A model generated the notes under the pieces. That model did not search any database, was not told the origin of the DNA, and saw only the letters and a program-made list of their open reading frames with translations. A stretch of DNA of 64,000 nt from Neoroseomonas oryzicola (GTDB lineage Bacteria; Pseudomonadota; Alphaproteobacteria; Acetobacterales; Acetobacteraceae), in assembly GCF_012163135.1 (NCBI RefSeq), contig NZ_JAAVUP010000002.1, positions 496,001 through 560,000 of the forward strand, in the 5' to 3' direction. Every line of letters begins with the position of its first letter. Positions within the stretch are counted from its first letter, which is position 1. The position numbers and the translations under genes were made by a program. Positions 43,114-49,732 of this stretch are shown here, one piece after another.

Positions 43114-43220
43114 GGTCGGGGGAGGATGAACCTCCCCCGAACCCCCTCCCTTTTCTGGTCACTTGGTTCCAAAGAAGGTTGAGGGGGGTTCCGGGGGGAG
43201 AAGTTCCCTTCTCCCCCCGC
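43114..43220. repeat. 105-bp three-hairpin intergenic repeat, copy 2
   Basis: The inverted second copy of the element at 3353-3457. Read on the minus strand it keeps CGGGGGGAGAAG pairing perfectly with CTTCTCCCCCCG, the CCTTCTTTGGAACCAA block, and TCGGGGGAGG pairing with CCTCCCCCGA. In the middle hairpin the partner arm differs at two positions. It lies between the stop of the fused oxidoreductase and the acyl-CoA dehydrogenase start, here between genes in the same direction. Confidence 0.85.
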
Positions 43221-47322: not shown

Positions 47323-48117
47323 TCAGGTCTTGATCGGCCCGCCCCGGCCGCCACGACCCTGGCCGGGCGGGTCGCCCGGGTCGTTGTCGGACGGCCCGGC
47401 GGGCGCGCGACCACCGCCGCCACCACCGCGACCCTGGCCCGGCGGATCGCCCGGATCGGCGTCGCTGACACCGCCGCCACGGCCGCCGCCGCCACCACCG
47501 CGACCCTGGCCAGGCGGATCGCCCGGATCGGCGTCGCTGACACCGCCGCCACGGCCGCCGCCCCCACCACCGCGGCCCTGGCCCGGCGGATCCCCTGGAT
47601 CGGCATCGCTGACGCCGCCGCGACCGCCACCCCCGCCGCCGCGGCCTCCGCCGGCCGGATCCCCCGGATCGGCGTCGCTGACGCCCGTCCGCGGCCGCCC
47701 GCCGCCCTGCGCGCCGCGACCGCCGCCGGGGGGATCGCCTGGGTCGGCATCGCTCACGCCCGTGCGGGGCCGGCCGCCGCCTTGCGGACCGCGGCCGCCA
47801 TTCGGCGGATCGCCGGGATCCGCGTCCGTCATGCCTGTCTGCGGCGGGCGCTGCCCGCCCTTGACCGGCGGGCTGCCGCCGCCACGGCCCTGGCCCGGCG
47901 GGTCGCCCGGATCGTTGTCGGACGGTCCGGCCGGGGCACGCCGGGGCGCCGGGCTCGGCGCGGGTGCCGGTGCCGGGCCGGGCGCCGGCGTGCCGCCGCC
48001 TTCGCCCTTCGTGCCCTGCGCCAGCGCGGCGCCGGGCAGGGCGGCCGCGCCGCCCGCGGCGGCGAGTCGGACCACGACGAGGCGCCGCGCCAGGCGATGG
48101 TCGGGTGAATCGGTCAT
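47323..48117 (-). CDS. Exported DPGDPP-repeat protein, function unknown
   Basis: A 264-aa protein with a twin-Arg-like signal (ARRLVVVRLAAAGGAAALPG, ending ALAQ near residue 34). After an Ala/Pro linker come eight copies of SDADPGDPPG followed by GRG and Gly/Arg-rich spacers, for example VSDADPGDPPGQGRGGGGGG; the first and last copies have SDNDPGDPP. The protein is therefore an alternating acidic and basic low-complexity polymer in the periplasm or outside. I do not recognise a named family. The acidic D-x-D-P-x-D could bind calcium. It ends 121 bp before the large repeat protein in the same direction and its start faces the LexA-regulated small gene. Confidence 0.7.
   Translation of the reverse strand: MTDSPDHRLARRLVVVRLAAAGGAAALPGAALAQGTKGEGGGTPAPGPAPAPAPSPAPRRAPAGPSDNDPGDPPGQGRGGGSPPVKGGQRPPQTGMTDADPGDPPNGGRGPQGGGRPRTGVSDADPGDPPGGGRGAQGGGRPRTGVSDADPGDPAGGGRGGGGGGRGGVSDADPGDPPGQGRGGGGGGRGGGVSDADPGDPPGQGRGGGGGGRGGGVSDADPGDPPGQGRGGGGGGRAPAGPSDNDPGDPPGQGRGGRGGPIKT
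47425..47640 (-). repeat. Three near-identical 72-bp tandem repeats inside the DPGDPP-repeat gene
   Basis: The DNA has an exact 72-bp period (ACCCTGGCC at 47431 and 47503, GCCCTGGCC at 47575), each unit coding for 24 residues. The three units are much closer to each other than to the outer repeats, indicating recent duplication and probable copy-number variation in frame. Confidence 0.8.
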
Positions 48118-48232
48118 GGAACGGGCGCTCCGCTGGAACTGGGGGAACATACTCGGCGCCGGAACGGGCCCCGCACAAGACCGCAGGCGGGGGGCGGTGT
48201 GTGAGCCGGCACACAGAACCTCTTGCATTAAT

Positions 48233-48247
48233 GTTCTTGGTTTGTTC
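48233..48247 (+). promoter_or_regulatory. LexA (SOS) box, GTTC-N7-GTTC
   Basis: GTTCTTGGTTTGTTC matches the alphaproteobacterial LexA site, a direct repeat GTTC spaced by 7. It lies 10 bp before the ATG of the 58-aa membrane protein, between a TTGCAT (48223-48228) and a TATCAT (48249-48254) that could be -35 and -10 elements at a long spacing of 20. LexA bound here would block transcription until DNA damage. Confidence 0.75.
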
Positions 48248-48257
48248 TTATCATCCC

Positions 48258-48434
48258 ATGAGCACGCGCACCGCCACCGATCCCTCCCTGGAGATCCCGC
48301 CGCTCCCCCTCGTGGTCCGCTTCGTGCCGGCCAGGCCGGCGCGTACGGCCCGTCGCGCCATGCGCGACTTCACCGCCTTCCTGGCGCTAGCCTGGGCTGC
48401 GGCGGAGCTAGCCCTGTGGGCGACGGGGGTCTGA
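48258..48434 (+). CDS. Small SOS-controlled membrane protein, candidate division inhibitor
   Basis: A 58-aa protein: a basic, Pro/Arg-rich N-terminus (residues 1-36, with ARPARTARRAMR) and one hydrophobic helix at the C-terminus (FTAFLALAWAAAELALWATG). This is the topology of a type II single-pass inner-membrane peptide. The LexA box directly upstream predicts induction by DNA damage. Small SOS-induced membrane proteins such as Caulobacter SidA block division by binding FtsW/FtsN; an analogous role is proposed by analogy, not by homology. No SD is seen, so the mRNA may be leaderless; translation from Met36 (24 aa) is an alternative. Confidence 0.6.
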   Translation: MSTRTATDPSLEIPPLPLVVRFVPARPARTARRAMRDFTAFLALAWAAAELALWATGV

Positions 48435-48520
48435 GGCGCGCCTTGCTCATTTGATCGCGCCTGCCGCGGCCCCATCTGTCGCCACCCGGCCGGCGTGCCG
48501 CCGGAACGGTTGCGAGGGCG

Positions 48521-49732
48521 ATGATGGGATATACGCGGCGCGGAATGCTTGCCCTGGGGGGCGTCGGCCTGGCCGGCGCCTGGGTCCAGGGCAGCCGGCC
48601 GGATCCGCGCGGGCCGGCGGTGCCCATGGGCCATGCGGCGGAAGCCTCCGCCCTCGGCATCCCCAATGAACGCTTCATGCTTTCCGCCCCCGGCGGGACC
48701 GAGGCGCTGCTGCGCGGCCTCGCGGACGCGACGCGGCGGCGGCAGTTCGCGATGGGCCTTCCGGCCTCGGCCGAGCCGCTGCTCGACAAGCAGATCCTCG
48801 CGCTGTCCGGCGGCGGGGAGAACGGCGCCTTCGGGGCCGGGCTGCTGACCGGCTGGACCGCGCATGGCACGCGCCCGACTTTCCATATCGTCAGCGGCGT
48901 CAGCGTCGGCGCCCTGATCGCGCCCTTCGCCTTCATCGGCCCGTCGCGCGATGCGGAACTGCGCGAACTCTTCACCACCATGACGGCCGACCAGGTCATG
49001 CGCCGCCGCGGCTGGATCGACGGCGTTGTGGGCGAAAGCCTCGCCGACAATGCGCCCCTGATGGACACCATCGCGCGCCACCTCGACGCCGGCATGATGG
49101 AGGACATCGCGCGCGGGCACGAGGAAGGGCGCGTGCTGCTGGTCGGCACGGTCAACCTCGATGCGCAGGCGGCGGTCTGGTGGAACCTCGGCGCCATCGC
49201 CGCCAGCGGGCATCCCGGCGCGCTCCCGCTGATGCGGGAGATCCTGCTGGCCTCTGCCGCGATCCCGGGGCTGTTCCCGCCGAGCATGATCGACGTGACG
49301 CTGGGCGGGCGCCGCTTCCAGGAAATGCACGTCGACGGCGGCGCGCTGGCGCAGACCTTCGTCTATCCGTCCGCGCTCGGCGAGAAGCGGCGCGCGCGGA
49401 TCCGCGAAGGGCTGCCCGTGCCGCAAGCGGCGGCTTATGTCATCTGCAACACGCGCCTCAGCGGCGCCCGCCCGCCGGTCGGCCTCTGGACCGTCTCGAT
49501 CGCCGAGCGCGCGATCGCCGCGCTGATCCGCGCGAATGGCCTCGGCGATGTCTGGCGCATCTACCAGAACGCCGAGCGCGACGGGATCGGCTTCAACCTT
49601 GCCGTCATCGGCGACGACTTCGCGCCGATGCCGCAGGCGCGCTTCGACCGCGACTACATGCGCGCCCTGTTCGCCCATGCCGAGGACCAGGCCCGGCGCG
49701 GCTATCCCTGGATGCACAGCCCCCCGGTCTGA
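48521..49732 (+). CDS. Patatin-like phospholipase
   Basis: A 403-aa serine hydrolase with a patatin fold. The oxyanion motif SGGGENGAFGAGLL is near residue 95, the nucleophile Ser lies in GVSVG (about 125-129) and the catalytic Asp in HVDGGAL (about residue 272). The N-terminus has YTRRGMLALGGVGLAGAW, a Tat- or Sec-type signal or anchor without a clear cleavage site, so it probably acts in the periplasm. It may release fatty acids from phospholipids. Two adjacent ATG codons at 48521 and 48524 follow GAGGGCG. Confidence 0.87.
   Translation: MMGYTRRGMLALGGVGLAGAWVQGSRPDPRGPAVPMGHAAEASALGIPNERFMLSAPGGTEALLRGLADATRRRQFAMGLPASAEPLLDKQILALSGGGENGAFGAGLLTGWTAHGTRPTFHIVSGVSVGALIAPFAFIGPSRDAELRELFTTMTADQVMRRRGWIDGVVGESLADNAPLMDTIARHLDAGMMEDIARGHEEGRVLLVGTVNLDAQAAVWWNLGAIAASGHPGALPLMREILLASAAIPGLFPPSMIDVTLGGRRFQEMHVDGGALAQTFVYPSALGEKRRARIREGLPVPQAAAYVICNTRLSGARPPVGLWTVSIAERAIAALIRANGLGDVWRIYQNAERDGIGFNLAVIGDDFAPMPQARFDRDYMRALFAHAEDQARRGYPWMHSPPV

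Follow-up and report, generated by a model that had tools for sequence, protein, structure and literature searches.

The SOS division inhibitor known from the Alphaproteobacteria is SidA, a 29-aa protein of Caulobacter. In YneA and ChiZ the membrane helix is N-terminal, a layout shared by SosA. The TisB protein of Escherichia coli is an SOS-induced small membrane peptide, and tisB is controlled by an antitoxin RNA that acts on the 5' leader. Excerpts of two papers describe late division arrest by small SOS-induced membrane proteins of other bacteria (PMC13396833, PMC4211646). In the same excerpts, the YneA helix binds TM7 of FtsW (PMC13396833) and SidA acts through FtsW (PMC4211646), and AlphaFold 3 models place the helices of SidA, SosA and ChiZ on FtsW with a confidence stated not to be high (PMC13396833). 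A further paper deals with depolarisation driven by TisB once DNA is damaged (PMC11997105), and the Caulobacter LexA motif is given as GTTCN7GTTC in an excerpt of PMC12700426.

In the window (the whole stretch of 64,000 nucleotides of DNA that was analysed), which comes from a genome of Neoroseomonas (Acetobacteraceae), an exact GTTC-N7-GTTC site precedes a tiny ORF by 10 bp, as the original prediction had it (Table 1). The putative -35 and -10 elements are separated by a 17-bp spacer, which places the predicted start of transcription (+1) at the A of the ATG. The box spans the promoter spacer and touches the -10 region. Because this geometry leaves no space for a Shine-Dalgarno leader, the message is likely leaderless, starting directly with the initiation codon, and the leaderless arrangement proposed earlier is well supported by the promoter as read here. 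Parts of the promoter are also found in relatives: the CTTGC located five bases 5' of TGTTC is retained in many of them, and TTAT directly follows the box in most rows of a scan of 59 loci. The number of boxes is by itself unremarkable in a 64-kb window, with two exact matches to GTTC-N7-GTTC against a shuffle mean of 0.87 and at least two in 21 of 100 shuffles (not significant). The significance of the box therefore lies in its conservation in relatives and not in the count. The other match in the window (43128-43142, GTTCGGGGGAGGTTC) has 10 copies among the 100 genome sites listed and, because of this recurrence, is probably part of a dispersed repeat and not a LexA site.

Table 1. Positions in the window of the candidate SOS gene, its promoter elements and the predicted parts of its product.
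Feature	Position	Strand	Basis or remark
LexA/SOS box, GTTCTTGGTTTGTTC	48233..48247	+	Exact GTTC-N7-GTTC
-35 element, TTGCAT	48223..48228	+	-35 to -30 if the A of the ATG is +1; read from sequence
-10 element, TCTTAT	48246..48251	+	-12 to -7; overlaps the second half-site of the box; read from sequence
CDS, 58-aa candidate SOS-controlled membrane protein	48258..48434	+	ATG at 48258-48260, stop ends at 48434; ORF, homologues, pN<pS
Residues 11-17, LEIPPLP, hydrophobic-x-I-P-x-P motif, predicted cytoplasmic	48288..48308	+	P14 invariant in alignments A2 and A3
Putative membrane-spanning helix containing L42, W46 and E50, roughly residues 38-56	48369..48425	+	Hydropathy, AlphaFold2, conservation
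Glu50 codon, within the predicted membrane helix	48405..48407	+	Conservation in homologues

A protein search of the genus gave 39 matches in 33 of 35 congeneric genomes (the homologue is missing from G017 and G018) and no match in the 24 non-congeneric genomes of the same search. Thirty loci were taken from these matches, and all 30 retain both the ORF and the box, 10 or 11 bp apart. This joint retention in congeneric relatives makes the predicted SOS control well supported at the level of sequence. The first refuting outcome named with the original prediction, loss of both box and ORF from close relatives, was not observed. The extended scan of 59 loci comprised the same 30 plus 29 named loci (including those of Neoroseomonas eburnea, marina, alba, lacus, terrae and soli); the two sets overlap, and many records represent the same genomes. 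Among the 64 gene copies in these loci, 62 have the box and two (L105, L107) end at a contig or locus edge just upstream. Thus, every genus copy with upstream sequence (62 of 62) has GTTC-N7-GTTC in the core promoter, the position that marks members of the LexA regulon. Four rows, representing two loci twice each, have an additional in-frame ATG 2 bp past the box besides the one at 11. We also identified congeners with two or three copies of the SOS gene each (G020, G024, G031, G033 and G034); these copies lie about 2-5 kb apart and have a box of their own wherever upstream sequence is present.

The pattern of substitutions is consistent with a coding gene. Between the window copy and its nearest relative, pN is 0.024 and pS 0.183, and pN is lower than pS against each of the 29 congeners to which the window copy was compared. 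The pN/pS ratio has a median of 0.52 and runs from 0 to 0.81 across 435 pairs, many of them well diverged synonymously. Together with the conservation of the ORF alongside its box and the homologues found, these values provide good support for a real protein, as first proposed, and for one under constraint. The residues that are invariant in the 30-row alignment include M1, P14, R36, D37, F38, T39, A45, W46, A49, E50, A52, L53 and W54, and P14, L42 and E50 are present in all rows of a 27-row alignment (A2). By pattern matching, 120 of the 120 homologues listed carry a Glu within the hydrophobic run, and 113 carry a motif of the I-P-(x)-P kind. A Glu/Asp pattern for the helix matched 157 of 158 sequences, the one miss having the Glu with an Arg nearby; 156 sequences were long enough and gave 21 non-redundant helices, in which the residue is Glu in 20 and Asp in one. 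The family signature is, therefore, an I-P-x-P motif in the predicted cytoplasmic part and an in-helix acidic residue, nearly always Glu, in the arrangement L-x3-W-x3-E. The longer spacing A-x3-[GF]-x3-L-x3-W-x3-E was noticed post hoc and does not constitute a test. Both the in-helix acidic residue and I-P-x-P suggest that the protein makes specific contacts with other proteins.

A basic N-terminus and a single C-terminal transmembrane helix, both anticipated in the original prediction, were recovered. The hydropathy peak (a 19-residue stretch) covers residues 40-58 and has 7 basic and 3 acidic residues N-terminal to it. AlphaFold2, run with the 30-row alignment, returned a single helix at residues 28-56 (mean pLDDT 82.2; pTM 0.44), with block pLDDT values of 94 for residues 31-40 and 98 for residues 41-50 and less certainty in the N-terminal part. 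In 25 of the 27 rows of A2, the segment N-terminal to the helix has more basic than acidic residues (the exceptions are L070 and L165, the latter with equal numbers), and 0-5 residues follow the helix in 25 of the 27 rows, with 20 and 21 in two g61 members. The excess of basic residues before the helix and the near absence of residues after it lead to a predicted N-in topology (positive-inside). No match to the 58-aa protein was found in Pfam, NCBIfam or PHROG, and a PHROG search with four members of the family was also negative. Searches bearing on a phage or mobile origin found no relative in viral_contigs when the genus-level alignment A1 was used as the query and no match to window positions 48180-48460 among plasmids.

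Homologues of the protein extend beyond the genus. A profile search of 5.8 billion proteins returned 185 homologues at E<=0.01, and the organism-named entries among the 120 matches listed are assigned to Neoroseomonas, Falsiroseomonas, Roseomonas or Acetobacteraceae. The strict promoter pattern gave 27 sites in 24 of 397 Acetobacteraceae genomes, with none for the reversed control among the matches listed; in 10 of the 12 strict-pattern matches outside the genus, a small protein of the same layout starts 10-11 bp past the box. A relaxed pattern matched 224 of the 397 genomes, with scattered matches in the control, and a hand-picked set of 40 relaxed matches contained 11 members and 29 non-members. 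In the protein-first searches, the first profile had four distant matches, with the box in three and none at L061. A 43-row profile matched 101 of the 397 genomes at E<=0.01, and further genomes may have been missed since at most 16 candidates were scored per genome; its weak tail was taken as noise, and weak matches (E about 1e-4 to 0.01) were counted as members only after inspection. We inspected 31 of the profile matches, mostly new (L237 repeats L089). Twenty have the exact box 9-11 bp before an in-frame start, six have a box placed at a different distance (L214, L219, L221, L222, L226 and L238) and five have no exact box (L215, L218, L220, L240 and L244, which include all three g40 loci inspected). 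The spacing of members found by pattern is given by construction; the protein-first sets are free of this constraint, and the 43-row profile itself included pattern-first members. Members with the box 9-11 bp upstream were found in 13 of the 102 genera sampled (g1, g28, g46, g49, g53, g61, g72, g84, g88, g100, g113, g115 and g120), and the shortest members have 43 aa. Box-first searching of 318 genomes of the class (314 outside Acetobacteraceae) with the strict pattern matched three genomes, one of them the window's own; in this sample and with this pattern, no member of the family turned up outside Acetobacteraceae. The matches in the other two genomes, a LexA/UmuD-like protein (read from the translation) and an unrelated 84-aa protein, were rejected. 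Among the papers listed in searches of open-licence PMC literature, none dealt with the SOS genes of Roseomonas or of Acetobacteraceae in general, and an earlier description is possible. Apparently, this is a fast-evolving, unnamed SOS gene family of Acetobacteraceae, undescribed as far as the searches reached.

The genes that flank the small ORF are conserved to different degrees. A DsbA-type gene is convergent downstream in 27 of the 29 named loci (all but L098 and L116) and directly adjoins the SOS gene in 26. Because this neighbour is convergent, the small gene is predicted to form a transcription unit of its own. The upstream 301-aa gene is divergent in the named loci. In the window, the divergent ORF at 47323-48228 (minus strand) contains SDADPGDPPGQGRGG-type repeats, has no Pfam match and has been kept at this upstream position in many relatives; the box might also touch its regulation. 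Three g53 and two g72 members, with 29-44% identity to the window protein, keep DsbA downstream, and the repeat-rich 301-aa gene is kept upstream in three g53 loci, one g72 locus and one g120 locus, where its repetitive matches are the weaker evidence. At the other diverged loci with about 1.5 kb of flank (L068, L070, L071, L072, L073 and L086) there is no DsbA match, so their orthology is argued mainly from promoter and layout. A patatin-like phospholipase gene (48521-49732 in the window) starts 86 bp past the end of the ORF; it lies between the SOS gene and DsbA in one of the 29 named loci, that of N. marina, and is probably a recent insertion.

The genome has 104 exact sites compared to 21 for the reversed pattern. 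We examined 18 regions of the 104 sites, a selection made by eye on box composition that includes the window's two and is not the full regulon. In these regions, boxes adjoin lexA (PF01726, PF00717), recA (PF00154), ssb (PF00436), mmcB (PF06319), a tag-type glycosylase gene (PF03352), a gyrB/parE-type ORF (PF00204) and a PA0069-type radical SAM gene. An imuA-like gene also has a box, its imuA match being below the curated cut-off (86.9 versus 150 bits); the ORF beside ssb has no Pfam match, and uvrA is not claimed. From its box and the presence of a lexA/recA regulon, we infer that the 58-aa gene is controlled by LexA. We also identified a second SOS-box gene (L034:3121-3399; C32:316120) for an 80-aa protein that starts MSDPLAIPPLP and has an I-P-P-x-P motif in common with the window protein. 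In G001 the orthologous gene (L247) retains the box, and its product has LAIPPIP; matches in the genus were found in 5 of 13 genomes, and the N-terminal motif was seen to be kept in the window genome and G001. Two further boxes adjoin small proteins without a Pfam match: GTTCTTGTATTGTTC lies between a divergent S24-peptidase (LexA-like) gene and a gene for a 124-aa protein (L032:1981-3188; C32:53778), and GTTCTTGATTTGTTC lies 24 bp 5' of a 75-aa ORF (L031:2932-3189; C12:1034183).

By analogy with SidA, YneA and SosA, and because SulA was not found (PF03846 matched none of 19 congeneric genomes and, among 14 control genomes, only E. coli), we lean, by a small measure, towards an SOS-induced membrane checkpoint protein with a SidA/YneA-like action on the septal synthesis complex. 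The 58-aa protein itself has no match to PF03846 or to another Pfam family. The model starts from what the sequence provides (gene, box, promoter geometry, family, predicted helix and conserved residues) and extends to a conjectural topology in vivo, target and division arrest. The gene would be a single-gene SOS unit in which, as SOS biology leads one to expect, LexA bound at the box, between and over the -35 and -10 elements, represses the gene until RecA triggers its self-cleavage, releasing a leaderless message that begins at the ATG. The 58-aa product would insert via its C-terminal helix and leave the basic N-terminal part in the cytoplasm. Residues L42, W46 and E50 could then pack onto a multi-spanning protein of the division machinery, FtsW or its FtsI/FtsN partners being the most likely, and the I-P-x-P motif could provide a second, cytoplasmic contact. 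Septal wall synthesis would pause until the DNA is repaired.

Several observations weigh against a role in division. The helical moment of conservation (100 degrees per residue) is not significant (p 0.22), and 11 of the 31 inspected profile members have no exact box or have it at another spacing. YneA and ChiZ work via an outer LysM domain, and the 58-aa protein has the opposite predicted layout, with a C-terminal helix, no Pfam match and almost nothing outside. Furthermore, a small membrane protein induced by SOS may have a role other than in division, as TisB illustrates. A TisB-like peptide would lower the proton motive force and lead to dormancy with no specific block of division, and the SOS control, small size and single helix of the window protein are all compatible with such an action. 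However, the promoter geometry, with its predicted start site, would leave no 5' leader for control by an antitoxin RNA, and a hydrophobic helix with one fixed acidic residue plus a conserved cytoplasmic linear motif suggests protein contacts, which makes a depolarising peptide improbable.

The protein could also be a small regulatory subunit that acts on another membrane protein (a transporter, a protease, a signalling protein or a wall enzyme) during the SOS response, with no direct effect on division. Such action is common among small bacterial membrane proteins, and a fixed acidic helix residue suits a specific partner helix. Yet, no operon partner is conserved, as DsbA is convergent and the 301-aa gene divergent in the named loci, and we regard this role as unlikely, if worth keeping in view. 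The proximity of the patatin gene could suggest instead that the ORF is spurious and that the box serves the patatin gene or the divergent gene. This is highly improbable. Box and ORF persist in the named loci although patatin is present in only one of them, which rules patatin out as the box-regulated gene, and the excess of pS over pN in every comparison with the window copy and the number of homologues also argue for a protein. For the ORF, the spurious reading is largely refuted.

A different mechanism for division control is suggested by the I-P-x-P motif (hydrophobic-x-I-P, then basic), which might mimic the conserved peptide at the C-terminus of FtsZ. In the same genome, FtsZ ends MGLEIPTFLRRQSN, and the window protein reads SLEIPPLPLVVRF. 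A hydrophobic-x-[IL]P motif with R/K within 6 residues is present in 107 of the 120 homologues listed, compared to a mean of 16.6 and a largest value of 29 after N-terminal shuffling, a comparison in which kinship among homologues is not corrected for. As a mimic, the membrane-anchored, damage-induced peptide would rival FtsZ in binding to FtsA or other receptors of the peptide, and the helix would meanwhile hold the septal complex, making the protein a two-handed checkpoint inhibitor. Against mimicry, L[DE]IP, the acidic form that occurs in the FtsZ peptide, is found in only 6 of the 120 homologues listed, and prolines take the place of the F-L of FtsZ in the family; we consider mimicry quite doubtful. 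For the proposed checkpoint protein acting on the septal synthesis complex, the conserved I-P-x-P motif, L42, W46 and E50 make the mechanism directly testable, and the 43-aa members outline a minimal working unit. Defined by its promoter, its motif and a fixed acidic residue in the predicted membrane helix, and present in 13 or more genera, the family is a concrete candidate for the coupling of DNA damage to division in Acetobacteraceae. Searching box-first also reveals small, rapidly evolving SOS genes that escape protein searches made with a single sequence.

The comparison with known systems places the predicted protein among them without matching any one. SidA of Caulobacter crescentus, in the excerpt of PMC4211646, is likewise an alphaproteobacterial, SOS-controlled and very small inner-membrane protein; at 29 aa it differs from the 58-aa window protein, which has a predicted cytoplasmic part of about 37 residues and the I-P-x-P motif. 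DidA, also of Caulobacter, is described in the same excerpt as a division inhibitor of 71 aa whose single helix is flanked by a short cytoplasmic and a short periplasmic part (PMC4211646), and is similar in these respects but SOS-independent, whereas the window gene has a LexA box. YneA of Bacillus subtilis, SosA of Staphylococcus aureus and ChiZ of Mycobacterium are comparable as DNA-damage-induced small membrane proteins. YneA and ChiZ differ by their outer LysM domain, as described in the excerpt of PMC13396833, and the window protein departs from all three in its predicted C-terminal helix with almost nothing beyond. Unlike TisB, the window gene appears, from its promoter geometry, to have no room for an antitoxin-controlled leader, and its product has a fixed acidic residue and a predicted cytoplasmic motif.
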